The notes beneath the pieces were generated by a model, which was not told the DNA's origin, made no database searches, and was given only the letters and a program-made list of their open reading frames with translations. Positions 12,695 to 20,256 of a stretch of 26,997 bases of DNA are shown in pieces; within the stretch, counting starts at the first letter, position 1, and each line of letters opens with the position of its first letter. Position numbers and translations under genes: made by a program. The stretch lies in IMG/VR virus record IMGVR_UViG_3300048672_000845, positions 1 through 26,997 of that record. The stretch is one strand, 5' to 3'. Origin of the DNA: a virus.

Positions 12695-15600
12695 TTAACT
12701 AACCAACATTTTATCTATGTATCTTGCTTTGTAATTATGGCGCTCTTCTTCGATTGTCATTTTATAGCCATCAATGTTTACTTTGAGCATGGATTTATTT
12801 TCTATGGCATGGCGCAATTTTACAAGCTCTTCAATTGTTGCCACATCCTTTTGACTTCCTAATCCTTCTGGAACTACCATATTCATTTCGAAGTTTTTCA
12901 CCAAGTTAGGCATTAACTCCTTAATGTTATTGTAAACTTTGAGATTATCTACTAATTCCTGATTGCTCAATCTTGCACCTCCTATTTGTTCGTTCAGGTC
13001 TGTAGGGATAATTCGCTCACCTTTATTAACCCTCGCTGGAACCGTATCTATGCCACTAGGATACTGATTTGCAATATCCACATAATCAGAACCCTTGAAA
13101 AAGTTAGGCGTTGTGCGTGGTTCTGGGTAGTATAATATCTTTCCGTTTTCATCTCTAACTGGCGGGTATGTTTCATATATAGACCTAACATAATTACCTT
13201 CTTGGTCGTAATCATTACCAACAGGCATTTCGTGTCCATCTGGCCCAGGAGTTCCAGGCTCATCAGCTGTTTGCCCGCCATAAGGGGCATCTTCTGTTTT
13301 TGCTGGCTTACCACCCTCTTGTCCAAGATTTGGGTTGTAATTAGGGTCAGTATATGTACCACCTTTTACGCTACCAGTCCATCCAACTTGATCGTACTTG
13401 CTACCCAGTGGCGATTTATACGACATTGAAGAAACTTTTGCAATCATGGCTGCCGAAGCTACTGCAATAGCAACTGCCGCTGCAATAGCATAAGGCAAAG
13501 TAACAAGTGCTGCATAATAAGGAAGTAATGCCGCCTCAGCCATTAATGCTTGCAAGAGGATTTGAGTAATCATCATCTCCTTTTGTGCTTCAAACTTTTG
13601 GCGCTCTATTTCGTCCTCTCGCTTGGCTTGTTCTTCGTTGAGGCTATTTACGTCTTTAGTATATTGGTCATTGATTTGCGTTTTCTGGTCGGTAGCATTT
13701 TTGGTTATTTCGACGCTAGCATCTGCGTACTTTTTCTCTATCTTTTCCTTTTCTTCGGAATATCTTTTATCAATTTCTAATTTACTATTAGCGTGAGCAT
13801 TTTCTAAATCTTCAAGCTCTTTATTTATAGCTTCCTTTTTAGACGCATAATCATCTTCATTAGATTTTCTATCTTGATTATACTTATCATCAAGCTTGCT
13901 TCTTAAGTCGTCGTATTTAATATCTAAAGCCTCTTTAGCTCTTGATGCATCATCGGCAGATATTAAATCTTGTCTTCTTTGCTCGTTGATAATCCTAATC
14001 TCTTCATCTTTGGCTTTTTGTAGTTCATCTTTTTCCTTTTTATAAGCCTCAGATAACGCATCTAATTTATCATTTTGCTCTTTTTCTAAGTCGGATTTTC
14101 TTTTTGATATTGCGCTCTTTCTATCGTCATAATCTAAACCTAGCGCTTCCAATTGGGCTTTTCTTTGCTTTTCAAGACTATCCAATTCGGCTTTTCTTTG
14201 TTTTTCAAGAGTATCTAGCTTTGCCTTTTCCTCTTCATTAATAAGCTTTATCTTTTCATCCTTTATTTGGGTCGCTAAATCAATTTGTTCCTGAGTCGCC
14301 TTGCGAGTGTATTCAAGTTCTGCATCTAACTGCTGAATCTTGAAGTTATACTCCATTTGATAATAACTAGATACCAAACTTAACGCTGACTGAGTAATAG
14401 AGGCTATATTGTTCAAAGTTTTTTCAGTACCTGCAATCTTAATTTGATTAGCTTTATCAAAGTCTGACATAGTAGACTTGTTTATCTCAACTACTTTTAT
14501 CTGGTACTGCTCTTCAAACTGCATTCTTTTGTCGTTATAGTTTGAAAATTCTCTAGTCAAGTTACTTAAAAATGAAGTGAACCGCTGAAATCTAGCGTTA
14601 CTAATCATTAATTCCTCCTCAGTCTTTGCAAACTTTTTCGTCAATTCTATCTTAGCCTCGATATTGTCACCAAGCAATTTGTATTGTGCATCGTAACTTT
14701 TTTTCAGGTTAGATACTGAATCATTAGCAAACCCATTTACAGTTTTAGTCATATTATCAAAAGCATTTGACGCTAATTTTATAGTATCACTCAACATTTT
14801 TTGGTATTGCATACTCTCTTTTTCGTATAAATGCAATCTATCTAAACTAGCCTTAGTAAAGTACTTTTTTTCAGCGTCTACCCTGTCGGTTGTAGTCTTT
14901 TGTGCAATAACCTGATAAGCCTTGTACTGTACAGAATCTTTGCCGTAAGTTATTTCTAAAAATTTCAAATGGCGTGTTTGAGCTTCTTCCTCAGCTTTTA
15001 GGCGCTTGATAGTATTGGCAAGTATTTCATCGTCGGTCTTTTTGCCATACTTGGTAATGATAGCCATCTTATGATGCTGAGTTTTGGCGCTTAAAACCTC
15101 CTCATAAACTGCTCGAGCATCATCACGCTTATTTAAGGTATCAAGATAGCTCTGATACTGCTTTTGGTAGTCAGCATTAATTTGCGCCAACTGCTTAGTA
15201 GTCTCTTTTTCCTTATCAATACGTGCCTTTGTTGATTCAGTGGTAAGCTGAACTACGCCACGTTGAATCTCATTAACTTGTATGTATTCCTGTTGTCTTA
15301 ATGATTTCCAGCTTGCTTCATAAGACTTCGTAATAGTATCTCTATCTTTTAAGTATTTAGCCTGAATATCAAGGATAGCTTTAGTCTCTGAATTAATATC
15401 CTTGTACGTAGCTTGTGCTTGCTTGATTCTATCGTCCCTTTCAGCTTTGAGTGCTTCAAACTTTTTCTTATAGATTTCATCGACTGTCGCAAAAGTCATG
15501 GTTTTGGTTTCCAGCTCGGTCTCCGCCAAAATCTCTTTAAGCTTTGCACTTGTGATATTCTGGTTTTTTACTTTGTCTTCGCCCACAGTTTTTGCTATTG

Positions 15601-17821
15601 CTACCTCCGTTTTACCTAGCTTTTCAACTTCTTTTGTGTACCATTCTTGGTCTTGTTTTTGAGCTTCTAAATTACCTTTGTGATTTTCTAACTTGTCTCT
15701 TAATTGGCGTTTAAGATTGTTTATCTCTCTAGCGTTAATAGATGTTCTTATTTGCTCAGAATCATCTGTTAGCTTATTGATTTGCTTAATTGTTGATTCT
15801 GCTACACTGCCCAAAGATTCATAATTCTTAATCTGTTGATTAATAGCGTTCATGTCCAACGTACTACCACCCATCGATGTAGTGATAGTAATAGATTTTT
15901 GAGCTTTAGCCAATTCCTGAACAAATTGTAAATCGTTAGCGTACTGCTTAGATAATGCAGAATTTTCAGCACGCAACTTTTGAACAATATCATATCTTTG
16001 CTTCTCTACCTCTAAAGCCTTTTCACTTAACTGTTCAGCTTTTGCATTAAGTACGGCTAACTGTATTTTCTTTTGAAGTTCTCTGTTTGTAAGCGCAATT
16101 GCGGTTGTTACTGCATCATGGTTATTCTTCTCAGTACTTAGATTGCTGAAATACGCTGGAAACTGTTTTTGTAGCTCAATAACAGTATTCTTGTACTCGT
16201 CTGTACCCTGCTTTGCGTTGGCCAACTTGCTAGTAAGCTGATTAAAGCTAACTACCTGTTTTTGTGCGTTATCAATTTCAGCACTTTGCACTTCCAATAC
16301 CTCTGTATTGATTGCCTTATATGCGTAGTATGCTGTAATTAGTCCACCAATTGCTGTAACTACTAAAGCCAATGGGTTAGCCCTTAACGCTGTATTGAAT
16401 GCAGTTGCTGCAACTGTTGCTTCTGTTTGCGCTACTGTCATAACTGCCATTGAGCCAGTTCTTGCACGATCAAGTAAGATTAATTCGCCTTGAACTATTT
16501 TTGTTACTTCGTTAACTCCATTCCATAAGCTTTGCGCTAATGCCACGCCTTTTGTAGCTACTACATACGTACCAATTGCGGAGGCTCCTGCTTTGATAGC
16601 TTCCGTAGTGCGTTGCAACGCTGATTCACTGCCGATTGTGGCCGTCATTAAATCCTTGGTAGTTTCTATTGCTGACTGCAAAGTATCTTCATAGAATGTA
16701 CCAATTCTAGCCTTGGCAATAAAATAAATATCCGCCAAGTTAGATACTTGTCCACCAAGGGTTTTTGAAGCTGTAGCCATTGAGTTGTAATAAACCCCAC
16801 CTACTTTTGTAGCATCCATCAAAGCTTTTTCTACATCAGCAAAAGCAATCTTGTGATTTTCAGCAAGTTTAATAACTTCCTCTCGTGGCTTCTCCATCGA
16901 CTTTGCTAGTAAGTCAAATAACGGTACGCCATTGTCAGTAAACTGCTTAATCTCCTGAGCCATCAACTTGCCTTTGTTCTGTACATCGGTCATAGCCTTA
17001 GCAATCAAAGGGAGTTTTTCAATCCCGACACGAGAAGAAATATCGCCTAATGTATTGATATAAGGTATCAACTTGTCAGTCTCAACGCCCATCGCTTTTA
17101 GTCGCAAGGTCGTTTCCATCAATTGCTCAACTTCGAACGGTGACTTTTGGGCAATCTTAATTACCTCTGCATTAATCTGGTCTGACTTCTGCTTGTTACC
17201 TATCATATCAGATAGTGCCATAGAAAACAAATCAACCTTTGTTTTGGCATCAATAACTTGCATTCCAAACTGATATACCTCTCTAATTGAAAAAGCAGAT
17301 ACCACCATTGTGGCAAATGTCTTGACCGTATTACTTAGGTCGTCGTATGCTCCAGCTTGCTTTTTTAGTTCTATCAAACGAGCTTGTGCTTCTGCTTTTT
17401 CCTGCACTAATCTTGCACGGCTTGCATCGTTTGCTTCCTGAGTACGTATTTTTTCGTCAGCAATAGCTTTAGCCTTAACCGCATCAGATTGATTCATGCG
17501 CTCTTTAGCTTCTGCTTTAGCATCAGAAATACGTTCCTGCGTCTGAGCTTTAGCATCAAGCGTCATGCGCTTTTGCGTCTCAGTTAGTTCTTTGTAATTA
17601 GCATTTGTTTCGTTGAGCTCTTTTCTATTGTCAAGATAGGCTTGTCTAATTTCAGCTAGTTGTTTTTTATATTCAATACTAGCTTGTTTGGCGGAGGCTG
17701 ACGAGCTGTTTACAATCGCTATCTGCTCTTGTTGCAAGCGAATGTTTTCTTCCAGTGAAGCATTATAGGCGAGTAAATCCGTCCTATCTACTTCTATCTT
17801 ATATCTGACGTTTTTTTCCAT
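12695..17821 (-). CDS. Tail tape measure protein
   Basis: The 1708-residue protein sets tail length and helps DNA entry. Residues 1-155 are a coiled coil; about 190-350 match the tape-measure domain, with QEIKQFTDNGVPLFDLLAKS (289-308) as the best marker. Hydrophobic segments lie at about 405-435, 480-505 and 1420-1465. A long Lys/Glu-rich coiled coil with short repeats (KQRKAELDSLE / KQRKAQLEALG, about 1200-1230) fills the middle to C-terminal part. The C-terminus has a Gly/Pro-rich linker and then the segment PSGIDTVPARVNKGERIIP, typical of phage tape measure proteins. At about 0.15 nm per residue, the tail would be up to roughly 250 nm. The start ATG at 17821 is clear. It follows the chaperone-like genes, the usual layout. 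Confidence 0.93.
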   Translation of the reverse strand: MEKNVRYKIEVDRTDLLAYNASLEENIRLQQEQIAIVNSSSASAKQASIEYKKQLAEIRQAYLDNRKELNETNANYKELTETQKRMTLDAKAQTQERISDAKAEAKERMNQSDAVKAKAIADEKIRTQEANDASRARLVQEKAEAQARLIELKKQAGAYDDLSNTVKTFATMVVSAFSIREVYQFGMQVIDAKTKVDLFSMALSDMIGNKQKSDQINAEVIKIAQKSPFEVEQLMETTLRLKAMGVETDKLIPYINTLGDISSRVGIEKLPLIAKAMTDVQNKGKLMAQEIKQFTDNGVPLFDLLAKSMEKPREEVIKLAENHKIAFADVEKALMDATKVGGVYYNSMATASKTLGGQVSNLADIYFIAKARIGTFYEDTLQSAIETTKDLMTATIGSESALQRTTEAIKAGASAIGTYVVATKGVALAQSLWNGVNEVTKIVQGELILLDRARTGSMAVMTVAQTEATVAATAFNTALRANPLALVVTAIGGLITAYYAYKAINTEVLEVQSAEIDNAQKQVVSFNQLTSKLANAKQGTDEYKNTVIELQKQFPAYFSNLSTEKNNHDAVTTAIALTNRELQKKIQLAVLNAKAEQLSEKALEVEKQRYDIVQKLRAENSALSKQYANDLQFVQELAKAQKSITITTSMGGSTLDMNAINQQIKNYESLGSVAESTIKQINKLTDDSEQIRTSINAREINNLKRQLRDKLENHKGNLEAQKQDQEWYTKEVEKLGKTEVAIAKTVGEDKVKNQNITSAKLKEILAETELETKTMTFATVDEIYKKKFEALKAERDDRIKQAQATYKDINSETKAILDIQAKYLKDRDTITKSYEASWKSLRQQEYIQVNEIQRGVVQLTTESTKARIDKEKETTKQLAQINADYQKQYQSYLDTLNKRDDARAVYEEVLSAKTQHHKMAIITKYGKKTDDEILANTIKRLKAEEEAQTRHLKFLEITYGKDSVQYKAYQVIAQKTTTDRVDAEKKYFTKASLDRLHLYEKESMQYQKMLSDTIKLASNAFDNMTKTVNGFANDSVSNLKKSYDAQYKLLGDNIEAKIELTKKFAKTEEELMISNARFQRFTSFLSNLTREFSNYNDKRMQFEEQYQIKVVEINKSTMSDFDKANQIKIAGTEKTLNNIASITQSALSLVSSYYQMEYNFKIQQLDAELEYTRKATQEQIDLATQIKDEKIKLINEEEKAKLDTLEKQRKAELDSLEKQRKAQLEALGLDYDDRKSAISKRKSDLEKEQNDKLDALSEAYKKEKDELQKAKDEEIRIINEQRRQDLISADDASRAKEALDIKYDDLRSKLDDKYNQDRKSNEDDYASKKEAINKELEDLENAHANSKLEIDKRYSEEKEKIEKKYADASVEITKNATDQKTQINDQYTKDVNSLNEEQAKREDEIERQKFEAQKEMMITQILLQALMAEAALLPYYAALVTLPYAIAAAVAIAVASAAMIAKVSSMSYKSPLGSKYDQVGWTGSVKGGTYTDPNYNPNLGQEGGKPAKTEDAPYGGQTADEPGTPGPDGHEMPVGNDYDQEGNYVRSIYETYPPVRDENGKILYYPEPRTTPNFFKGSDYVDIANQYPSGIDTVPARVNKGERIIPTDLNEQIGGARLSNQELVDNLKVYNNIKELMPNLVKNFEMNMVVPEGLGSQKDVATIEELVKLRHAIENKSMLKVNIDGYKMTIEEERHNYKARYIDKMLVS
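14155..14220 (-). repeat. Direct repeat of about 33 bp in the tape measure gene
   Basis: Two nearly identical units read ggcttttctttg followed by ttttcaaga and tatc on the + strand. They encode the tandem LEKQRKAEL / LEKQRKAQL coiled-coil units. A third, less similar unit (LDTLEK) flanks them. This is a likely site for in-frame length change. Confidence 0.75.
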
Positions 17822-18105: not shown

Positions 18106-18465
18106 TTAAAATCCTGCTTCTTTTCTAAATTCAGTTTTTCTGGCTGTAAGTTTATCGAAATGCTCTTTTAGCTTAATTGGAATAGGTATAGCTACAACCC
18201 ATCTTAAATAAGGCAATATCCCAGCAAATCCAATACCCCAATGGTAATCAAGTACAAAAGAAAATTCAAACTGAAAGTTGTCTAATGTCCATATCTTAAA
18301 AAATAGCCACTTAAAACAAAAACTTTTTGTTTCGTAATAGTTAGCTTGTTTGATTCTTAAGTATGGCAACAGTGGAAATATAGAATCTTTACCAAACTCT
18401 TTTATATCAGTTTTTTCTTCTCTATAAACATTGCATTCGGCAGTCATTGGTTGTTTTGTTTTCAT
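18106..18465 (-). CDS. Conserved-looking 119-aa protein before the tape measure gene
   Basis: It has 119 residues, with an aromatic, beta-rich middle (CFKWLFFKIWTLDNFQFEF) and the run GIGFAGILPYLRWVV, then AIPIPIK. From memory, proteins with the GI.F.GILPYLRW signature occur in Bacteroidota phages next to the tape measure gene; no function is known to me. The ATG overlaps the stop of the gpT-like frame (ATGA, 18465-18462) and its leader is the A/C-rich CAACCGACGACATG. It lies where lambda-like phages have only the tape measure gene, so it may be a further assembly factor. The hydrophobic stretches are too interrupted to be sure of membrane spans. Confidence 0.7.
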   Translation of the reverse strand: MKTKQPMTAECNVYREEKTDIKEFGKDSIFPLLPYLRIKQANYYETKSFCFKWLFFKIWTLDNFQFEFSFVLDYHWGIGFAGILPYLRWVVAIPIPIKLKEHFDKLTARKTEFRKEAGF

Positions 18466-18824
18466 GTCGTCGGTTGTTTAAACTTCTTCTCAATAAACTC
18501 GGTTCGTTTCATAAACTCTAGTACTGTCAAGCTTTTGGCGTTCATAGTTCCGTTGTCTTCTAGTACACATACAAGTTCCTCAAATTGTTTCTCCTGAACC
18601 ACAAGGTAGTTGCTCGGTGAGCTAGTAAATATTTTCGGCTTCATTAAGCTAGTGAAATAATCGTATGCTTGTTGTAGTTGCTTTTGATGTACTTGACTTT
18701 CTGGTTCTAGTAATAATTGCAATTCAGCAAGCATTTTGCGCTTAATGTTACTGTAGTAGTTCAAGTCATTAGCTGTATCATTAGCAAACTTTTCAGGAAA
18801 ATAAATACCTAACTCGCTATCCAC
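18462..18824 (-). CDS. gpT-like frame of tail assembly chaperone, made by -1 frameshift
   Basis: This is a 120-codon frame, -1 relative to the 141-aa gene. It has no ATG start: the first codon is GTG, which is exactly the codon read after a slip on A AAA AAG at 18830-18824. The fusion would be 137 + 120 = 257 residues, close to lambda gpGT (279). The sequence starts VDSELGIYFPEKFAND and is helical; it ends FIEKKFKQPTT. In lambda, gpG and gpGT bind the tape measure protein and the tail tube protein during tail assembly, and their ratio is set by the frameshift. Here the gene precedes the tape measure gene by two small genes. Confidence 0.85.
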   Translation of the reverse strand: MDSELGIYFPEKFANDTANDLNYYSNIKRKMLAELQLLLEPESQVHQKQLQQAYDYFTSLMKPKIFTSSPSNYLVVQEKQFEELVCVLEDNGTMNAKSLTVLEFMKRTEFIEKKFKQPTT

Positions 18825-19234
18825 TTTTTTCTAATATCCTCGAGTGCCTCCTCCACGTCTCCCTGTGATACCTGTGTTTCCTCTAGTAGCCTTAAGCATT
18901 CCTCCTGCTCAATATCATTGTCAATATCACCCACTTTTCGGTCATTGATACTATAACACAACGCCAAAAAAGCGTTTGATTGATAATTAATGCCTTCCAA
19001 CATCGACCAGAATAATACGTGTAGATTCTCACGTTCCTGTAGTGCTTCTTGTATCTTATTGCCACGCAGGAAAGTATCTAGCTTTGCGAAGTGCTTGCTT
19101 ATGGCGTTCAAGTCAGATCCAATACCTGAATCTTGTATCAAGGCTCTATTGAAAGCATTATACCGCTTAATCGGCAAGTCTCGAATACTATCATACAGTA
19201 TTATTTTGCCGTTCGTGGCTTGTATAGTTTTCAT
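18809..19234 (-). CDS. gpG-like tail assembly chaperone
   Basis: From the ATG at 19234 the protein has 141 residues, almost the same length as lambda gpG (140). The start overlaps the previous stop by ATGA, with a strong AAGGGGG upstream; an upstream TTG (19303) would overlap the previous gene by 73 nt and was rejected. Near its N-terminus it has YDSIRDLPIKRYNAFNRAL, a pattern I recall from Bacteroidota phages before the tape measure gene; the C-terminus is acidic and ends in RKKWIAS. The slippery site lies five codons before the stop. It is expected to coat the tape measure protein during tail assembly. Most ribosomes should make this short form, a few the fusion. Confidence 0.85.
   Translation of the reverse strand: MKTIQATNGKIILYDSIRDLPIKRYNAFNRALIQDSGIGSDLNAISKHFAKLDTFLRGNKIQEALQERENLHVLFWSMLEGINYQSNAFLALCYSINDRKVGDIDNDIEQEECLRLLEETQVSQGDVEEALEDIRKKWIAS
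18824..18854 (-). promoter_or_regulatory. Slippery heptamer A AAA AAG with upstream SD-like sequence
   Basis: The gpG frame reads AGA AAA AAG TGG, and the heptamer A AAA AAG lies at 18830-18824. GGAGGAGG (18854-18847) and CGAGGA (18842-18837) lie 6 to 16 nt before it, the layout that stimulates -1 slippage in E. coli dnaX. No clear downstream hairpin was found by eye. Confidence 0.85.
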
Positions 19235-19506
19235 AGTGTACCCCCTTGACAAGCGTTCACTAATTCGACCAATTCCGGTGCCGACATTGGAATTATAAAG
19301 CAAGAACCTCCACTACAAATAGTACTAGCCTTTTCGGTAAATCCTTTGTGTGGCGTAATACTCGATACTTCATAAAAATAGCCGTAATCAATATCGTAAT
19401 CAGAGATTGACAACTTAGCATCTAAGCCAAGTAATTCATTTGTTTTTTCTTGCTGTTCAGCGTATTCACTATAATACACTACAGGTAATTTAATTGGATT
19501 TTTCAT
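19231..19506 (-). CDS. Hypothetical 91-aa protein between the two frameshift pairs
   Basis: The 91-residue protein has an N-terminal region (YYSEYAEQQEKTNELLGLD) and a beta-rich, aromatic centre (YDIDYGYFYEVSSI). Residues about 62-88 are Ser/Gly- and Val-rich with three cysteines (CSGGSCFIIP, NACQGG). It is not recognised. It starts 4 nt after the stop of the -1 frame at 19511 and ends by ATGA overlap into the gpG-like gene, so it is part of the same cluster. A partner of the chaperones or a small tail protein is possible. Confidence 0.65.
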   Translation of the reverse strand: MKNPIKLPVVYYSEYAEQQEKTNELLGLDAKLSISDYDIDYGYFYEVSSITPHKGFTEKASTICSGGSCFIIPMSAPELVELVNACQGGTL

Positions 19507-19510
19507 AAAA

Positions 19511-19801
19511 TTATTGTTTACGGTTAGCTCTCTCTTTCTCTTCCCTAATCTTATCTAATCTATACTGGAAATAGACGTGGAAATCTTCTGCACTGCCTTC
19601 AAGTAATCGGCAAAGCTTGTCAAGGTCTCCATCCGTAATTTTAAGTAATTCTCTTCTTCTGGAGTCAACTCTACCGCCAAGATACTCGACAAAAGACTCA
19701 TATTGTTGAGGCGCTGTAGTTGAACGTCGTCCGCTGTAAATTTCAGGAAATCGCTGTCTGAAAGAGTCGGAAACGGATTCCAAATATTTTGTGTAAACGA
19801 T
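19511..19801 (-). CDS. -1 frame of upstream pair, candidate C-terminal extension by frameshift
   Basis: After the slip at T TTT TTA the -1 frame runs 96 codons (IVYTKYLESVSDSFRQRF to EKERANRKQ). A TGA at 19813-19811 closes it just three codons upstream of the run, and no ATG lies near its start; TTG at 19783 is the only candidate start. The fusion would be 152 + 96 = 248 residues. The C-terminus has a basic/acidic helix (YRLDKIREEKERANRKQ). If made, it gives the same N-terminal domain another tail, as in lambda gpGT. Unlike lambda, the zero frame stays open for 81 codons beyond the slip, so about 245 nt code in two frames. Confidence 0.65.
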   Translation of the reverse strand: MVYTKYLESVSDSFRQRFPEIYSGRRSTTAPQQYESFVEYLGGRVDSRRRELLKITDGDLDKLCRLLEGSAEDFHVYFQYRLDKIREEKERANRKQ

Positions 19802-20256
19802 AAAAAAAAATCATTCAACTTTGGATGTTTCAAAAACTGCTGTTTCTTTTCTTCGGTAATCTCCTTATTGACGCGTGACGGGTTTTCTCCATGGCGGATA
19901 AACCAAAGTGCTGCCACATCAAAAACTCTTTCATACAAGAATCCTACTTCCGTTTGGCGCTTCATACTTGTAGCAATACCTATACCCTCAGTTGCTAGTG
20001 CGTTGATTTCCTTTGGATTATTGACATTGTTCATGATACGCTGAAACAGCCCAACAAACACGCCAAGATTGAAATCTAGGTCTTCCTTTTTGAGCACCCA
20101 GTTTGCGTGCTCTGTCATAATATCCGAAAATGCAAAAAGTCTTTCTTGTGACAACTTTGCGCCGTTTTCGGCAAACTGGTAGTAAGGAACACTATCGATG
20201 ACAAAAATTGGCTTTTCGCTTAAAATGTTTTCTTGGATAGCCTGTTCAAAGGTCAT
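19555..20256 (-). CDS. 233-aa protein of upstream frameshift pair
   Basis: The protein has 233 residues: N-terminal EQAIQENILSEKPIFVIDSVPYYQF-type strands, a helical core (about 85-150; VGFLYERVFDVAALWFIRHGEN is conserved-looking) and the slip at codon 152 (Leu, TTA). The zero-frame tail (residues 153-233, ending SFADYLKAVQKISTSISSID) is also protein-like. The ATG overlaps the 93-aa gene stop by ATGA. Position just upstream of the chaperone and tape measure genes suggests a tail or neck role. Whether zero-frame or -1 tail, or both, are made is unknown; a homopolymer error in T9 could produce one false frame. Confidence 0.7.
   Translation of the reverse strand: MTFEQAIQENILSEKPIFVIDSVPYYQFAENGAKLSQERLFAFSDIMTEHANWVLKKEDLDFNLGVFVGLFQRIMNNVNNPKEINALATEGIGIATSMKRQTEVGFLYERVFDVAALWFIRHGENPSRVNKEITEEKKQQFLKHPKLNDFFLSFTQNIWNPFPTLSDSDFLKFTADDVQLQRLNNMSLLSSILAVELTPEEENYLKLRMETLTSFADYLKAVQKISTSISSID
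19801..19810 (-). promoter_or_regulatory. Slippery heptamer T TTT TTA in a T9 run
   Basis: The zero frame reads GAT TTT TTT TTA TCG; T TTT TTA (19807-19801) matches the HIV-1 type heptamer. The -1 frame opens right after TGA (19813-19811). T9 is also a site prone to sequencing indels. Confidence 0.6.

Follow-up and report, generated by a model that had tools for sequence, protein, structure and literature searches.

A predicted phage tail assembly chaperone gene with two dual-coded tails and a conserved run of nine T's at which RNA polymerase may slip

The window, which is the whole stretch of DNA analyzed herein, comprises positions 1 to 26,997 of the IMG/VR virus record IMGVR_UViG_3300048672_000845. 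A 233-aa gene is found on its minus strand, and the features of this gene are collected in Table 1. Nine T's (T9) lie within the gene, and the residues of the run in the zero frame are D149, F150, F151, and L152. The zero frame continues for 81 codons beyond the run; therefore, 244 nt are open in both the zero frame and the -1 frame. The -1 frame begins immediately after a TGA and ends at the stop at 19511. For the -1 ORF a single start-like codon is listed, a TTG, which would yield 90 aa. The first-pass annotation had placed a T TTT TTA within T9 at codons 150-152 of the 233-aa gene, and this heptamer was located on the minus strand as described. The -1 frame of 96 codons directly after a TGA and without an ATG, the 81 open codons of the zero frame, and the stretch of about 245 nt read in two frames were likewise borne out.

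Table 1 Features at the locus of the predicted chaperone gene in the window.
Feature	Position	Strand	Basis
Zero-frame gene, G-like product, 233 aa, ATG start (shared N-terminal region plus zero-frame tail)	19555..20256	-	ORF; homologs by profile
Shared N-terminal region of both predicted products	19811..20256	-	Alignment
Slip run, nine T's on the coding strand (A's on the plus strand), GAT TTT TTT TTA in the zero frame	19802..19810	-	Exact T9 in 26/36 homologous places
Zero-frame tail, extending 81 codons beyond the run and overlapped by the -1 tail	19555..19801	-	Synonymous suppression and substitution positions
T-like tail in the -1 frame, 96 codons, lacking an ATG, reachable only via a slip at the run	19511..19801	-	Chance of the frame staying open, P 2.2e-4
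Tape measure protein gene, downstream of and in the same direction as the 233-aa gene	12695..17821	-	phrog_9959, E 7.4e-36

The nearest sequence found was the IMG/VR contig 3300048672_001193 (L003), with about 90% nucleotide identity to the window over the gene region. More distant relatives, L004 and L005, were obtained by a terminase query, and their terminases are 35-36% identical to that of the window. Both carry a syntenic homolog of the 233-aa gene (28-29% identical), in which seven T's followed by C (T7-C) stand at the same place as T9 of the window and the -1 frame overlap is 237 nt. A further record from the terminase query, L006, contained only a G+C-rich stretch with many overlapping ORFs and was left unused. 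Profile search added homologs in viral contigs and genome contigs, among them three Dyadobacter genomes. By profile search, homologs were found in 17 of 390 genomes of the order of genome G001 with a fuller profile (10 with the earlier profile), in 5 of 395 genomes of the class of G001, and in 4 of 22 genomes of the order of G668. The virus of the window is most likely a tailed phage related to prophages of Bacteroidota.

A total of 36 homologous places was counted, made up of a systematic table of 32 and four places fetched later, one of which repeats L046. L059 (a remnant), L047 (no run), and L053 (a fragment) were kept within the 36 as misses. Repeat fetches were counted once: L001, L007, and L011 equal L003; L009 and L016 equal L004; L010, L012, L015, and L017 equal L005; L018 equals L013; L019 equals L008; L020 equals L014; L002 equals the window; and L021 to L035 equal later copies among L036 to L059. 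L051 and L058 are two almost identical copies within a single genome, L062 is a repeat of L046, and each of these pairs was counted as two places. L003, L044, L058, and L062 were excluded from the figures given below for distinct loci, namely the open-frame P, the hairpin z, and the exact-nine P.

In 33 of the 36 homologous places, a slip run was found with a -1 tail of 61-118 codons behind it. The run is T9 in 26 places, T7-C in five places belonging to one Dyadobacter group, and six T's followed by C (T6-C) in two places, and it is absent from three. The systematic table of 32 contributed 22 T9, five T7-C, two T6-C, and three places with no run, and the four later places are all T9. A run of eight or ten T's was seen at the slip position in none of the 36 places. 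The T9 was retained even in loci with 50-65% G+C and is rare outside the gene, where 164,928 nt from the homologous loci contain a single exact T9 and a single T10. The codon phase of T9 was determined for 22 loci: 19 are in phase 2, L048 and L052 are in phase 0, and L045 is in phase 1. Given the amino acids and one in-frame T_TTT_TTN kept in place, the joint probability of exactly nine T's was 10^-15.7 over 22 distinct T9 loci; this value covers the T9 rows only, with the seven T7 and T6 loci left out. In the protein tree, the T7 loci form one clade within the T9 loci and T6 arises twice, giving three changes in total, with the deep joins unsure owing to several long end branches.

A sequencing error or a decayed gene was also considered as the origin of the T9. 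Homopolymers are error-prone, and the run has been lost in L047, whose tape-measure ORF is short. T9 with both frames recurs across many independent records, and a sequencing error or a pseudogene is thereby ruled out. The first-pass annotation had named a run of T8 or T10, or conservation of one tail only, as evidence against the two-tail reading; the closest relative, L003, retains T9 and both frames with their tails. L047 (equal to L026) is itself of note in its zero-frame ORF at 1483-2190 on the reversed strand, where the -1 tail is still open after loss of the slip run; its short tape-measure-like ORF suggests that this prophage is decaying.

The coding constraint on the two frames was measured by comparing the window with L003. 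Among codons specifying the same amino acid, the fraction that differed was 41/135 upstream of the run and fell to 6/73 within the overlap (Fisher p 2.1e-4), and the synonymous difference in five neighboring genes was 23-34%. Of the 12 substitutions in the overlap, 6 leave the zero-frame protein unchanged and 7 the -1 frame protein, and the bias of substitutions toward zero-frame third positions was weaker there (chi-square p 0.0016). Similarly, a synonymous drop in the overlap was found in seven further pairs of the Dyadobacter group (p 8.8e-6 to 1.0e-2; the pairs share sequences). Conditional on the amino acids of the zero frame and on local codon usage, the probability that the -1 frame is open across the whole zero-frame tail of the window was 2.2e-4. 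The summed log10 P for openness of the -1 frame was -35.2 over 20 distinct loci, and for several distant loci, where the zero tail is short, the single-locus P was not small (up to 0.55). The third frame was closed within 28 codons in 20 of 22 T9 loci, the exceptions being L038 and L060.

Both tails align across distant relatives, with lengths past the run of 61-118 codons for the -1 tail and 17-100 codons for the zero tail in the table of 32 places. If the -1 tail alone mattered, the zero-frame tail would be neutral read-on left open by accident, and a zero tail of only 17-47 codons in several distant relatives, next to their long -1 tails, is consistent with this. However, the zero tail is 77-100 codons long and alignable in the 13 loci of the clade of the window, and half of the substitutions between the window and L003 in the overlap are silent in the zero frame, so that neutral read-on is quite unlikely. 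It is very improbable that the -1 ORF is a separate gene with its own start inside the overlap and no fusion; the TTG noted above could serve such a gene, but the -1 tails share no ATG and can be aligned from the slip run on, and the run precedes the -1 tail in nearly all of the places (33/36). These data strongly support dual coding of the overlap as real, which we regard as nearly certain. The earlier proposal of one N-terminal domain with two different tails was thus upheld by the constraint on the overlap in both frames and by the alignment of both tails in distant relatives.

The genes downstream were analyzed for the function of the protein. Four small ORFs lie between the 233-aa gene and the tape measure gene in the window, and one lies there in L003. 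Among ten downstream ORFs tested, eight have tape-measure PHROG matches, one hits nothing but a family of unknown function, and one is without any match. The -1 tail extends into the beginning of the tape measure gene in the Dyadobacter prophages. According to PMC5009743, the mark of a G/G-T chaperone is a position ahead of the tape measure gene together with a -1 shift. In most relatives, the gene is located just before the tape measure gene, and a conserved -1 shift signal joining the two ORFs was found, as a sequence signature, in 33 of the 36 places. A shift near the 3' end of G was not found, since the zero frame extends 81 codons past the run in the window and 17-100 codons in the relatives.

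No convincing match to Pfam or PHROG was obtained for either part of the protein with 15 members tested, and no match to the gene family was found in phage records. In view of this and of the position of the shift away from the 3' end, the gene is not assigned to a known sequence family. A weak PHROG match of two A4 members to 'DNA primase' (best E 0.0014) was regarded as chance. Positions 62-133 of profile A5, within the N-terminal region, weakly resembled the flagellar export chaperone FliS in a PDB profile search (E 0.003), and this similarity may be chance between helical proteins. The T tail gave no PDB profile match of note. The predicted structures were too poor to use, with a mean pLDDT of 47.6 for G and 59.3 for T.

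The missing Pfam and PHROG matches and the four ORFs ahead of the tape measure gene in the window would also suit some other virion or assembly protein with a dual-coded end. Such a protein is rather unlikely, as most relatives combine the -1 shift with the position before the tape measure gene. Because a tape measure gene usually follows this gene family, a tail assembly chaperone of the G/G-T type is the most likely identity, and we consider it highly probable that the protein is such a chaperone. In position the gene is like a G/G-T chaperone gene, its protein probably works like such a chaperone, and it is probably needed for building the virus tail.

Two side observations were also recorded. 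In L040, the ORF at 2098-2694, which comes after the -1 tail and precedes a tape-measure-like ORF, resembles by eye a second copy of the chaperone N-terminal region. In the window, a second candidate shift lies at 18462-19243 on the minus strand with its junction at 18809-18824, where a 144-aa ORF stops just after an in-frame A_AAA_AAG and shares its end with the following ORF, which lies in the -1 frame. The family phrog_8914 (250 positions, virion structural) matches both halves of this stretch, at positions 1-136 and 138-248.

RNA folding after the run was analyzed. A general folding test over 70 nt gave no common signal (mean z -0.61, 29 loci). At the usual spacing for a stimulatory hairpin, a test chosen after looking at the general result, all five T7-C loci, which belong to one clade, showed a stem of 8-9 bp six to seven bases past the run, with z of -2.2 to -3.6. 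The mean z of the T9 loci was -0.26 (19 distinct loci), and a stimulatory-type hairpin was absent after T9 in the window and L003 at this spacing. Hairpin-like stretches were found exceptionally among the T9 loci, in L054 (z -3.1), L041 (-2.0), and L055 and L057 (-1.8 each). The two T6-C loci had no significant hairpin after the run. The T7-C and T9 groups differed with a Mann-Whitney p of 0.0035, computed on rows that are non-independent. Judged from these sequence features, the shift in the T7-C group is most likely ribosomal.

In PMC1088944 and PMC5009743, a run of nine A's or T's is given as the length of efficient slippage by bacterial RNA polymerase, and selection against nine-A/T runs is described as evident in many genomes. 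Since nine is the length of efficient slippage, and since T9 is mostly without a hairpin, unlike T7-C, transcriptional slippage is favored at T9. A run of at least nine A's or T's kept whatever the codon phase, as expected of programmed slippage, was found as T9 in 26 of the 36 places, and the seven T7-C and T6-C loci lack it. The best argument for transcriptional slippage is that nine T's are retained in all three codon phases.

The same chaperone and tails could instead be produced by ribosomal -1 frameshifting at T_TTT_TTT or T_TTT_TTA, as in other long-tailed phages. An in-frame heptamer is present at every place having a run, with T_TTT_TTT in frame within every T9; the T7-C and T6-C relatives have sites of the ribosomal type; and the G/G-T shift is ribosomal in lambda and P2, as stated in PMC5009743. 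The phase-2 T9 holds two overlapping ribosomal heptamers, and thus part of the T9 conservation could be ribosomal, which is the strongest objection to transcriptional slippage. However, a heptamer does not need the ninth T, exactly nine are kept in three phases and in G+C-rich loci, and a stimulatory hairpin is missing from most T9 loci. A ribosomal shift at T9 is possible, if on the doubtful side. RNA polymerase slippage is a serious alternative to the ribosomal T_TTT_TTA shift that was first assumed, and it is fairly probable as the main route at T9.

In the proposed mechanism, standard reading would give G, consisting of the N-terminal region and the zero-frame tail. A fraction of the readings would slip to the -1 frame at T9 and give G-T, consisting of the N-terminal region and the T tail. 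The shift lies far from the end of G, unlike that in lambda; therefore, G-T would swap the tail of G, replacing its last 81 residues, instead of extending it. In T9 members, RNA polymerase would insert an extra U while copying the nine T's, and normal translation of the resulting T10 mRNA would lead into the -1 frame. The ribosome would instead slip in the T7-C group of Dyadobacter, at U_UUU_UUU before C, aided by the hairpin. On the model of lambda, coating of the tape measure protein would fall to G and recruitment of tail-tube subunits to the T tail, at a G to G-T ratio determined by the slip efficiency. The whole chain, a chaperone with dual-coded tails that slips mainly at transcription in T9 members, falls just on the probable side. 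The wider proposal is evenly balanced: a chaperone family with dual-coded tails, in which T9 polymerase slippage sets the G to G-T ratio and at least three switches have led to C-ended U runs suiting ribosomal frameshifting, once with a hairpin.

The G/G-T shift is among the best-known recoding events and is regarded as ribosomal. The known chaperones of long-tailed phages are characterized by a G that binds the tape measure, a T that binds the tail tube, and the absence of both from the virion. The P2 counterpart of G/G-T is E/E'. In the literature searched, no report was found of a tail chaperone shifting by transcriptional slippage or of the chaperone gene family of the window. The T9 family, retaining exactly nine T's across long spans of evolution and having relatives with a ribosomal-type site, would allow a direct test of why a phage sets this protein ratio at the mRNA level or during translation. 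With so long a dual-coded stretch, G-T appears as a tail swap and not as an extension, a point of relevance to the sharing of the tape measure protein between G and G-T. A practical gain is that a probable chaperone missed by Pfam and PHROGs is named.

The gene resembles lambda G/G-T, and its counterparts in long-tailed phages as covered in PMC5009743, in being a small gene ahead of the tape measure gene, and in having an N-terminal part common to two products via a -1 shift, which here is a sequence signature. It differs in where the shift occurs: lambda shifts close to the 3' end of G and thereby makes G-T as G plus T, and the shift here is 81 codons before the end, with the tail of G lost from G-T. 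No sequence match was found between the lambda chaperone and the gene family of the window, and this family has the exact T9, probably slipped at transcription.

A second comparison is dnaX, for which PMC1088944 and PMC5009743 describe slippage at nine A's in Thermus thermophilus and a ribosomal shift in E. coli. Similarly, homologous chaperone genes apparently use either a nine-base homopolymer or a ribosomal heptamer with a hairpin for the same end, and if this is true, the dnaX situation occurs within one phage gene family. The dnaX gene is cellular and its shift shortens the product, whereas the chaperone gene would swap conserved tails by a slip that we infer. In Shigella mxiE, as described in PMC1088944, transcriptional insertion of a U joins two overlapping ORFs, and likewise one extra U in the U run here would put the second ORF in frame with the first. 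The mxiE protein is unrelated and needs slippage for its longer product, whereas both predicted products of the chaperone gene have long conserved tails over the 244-nt overlap.
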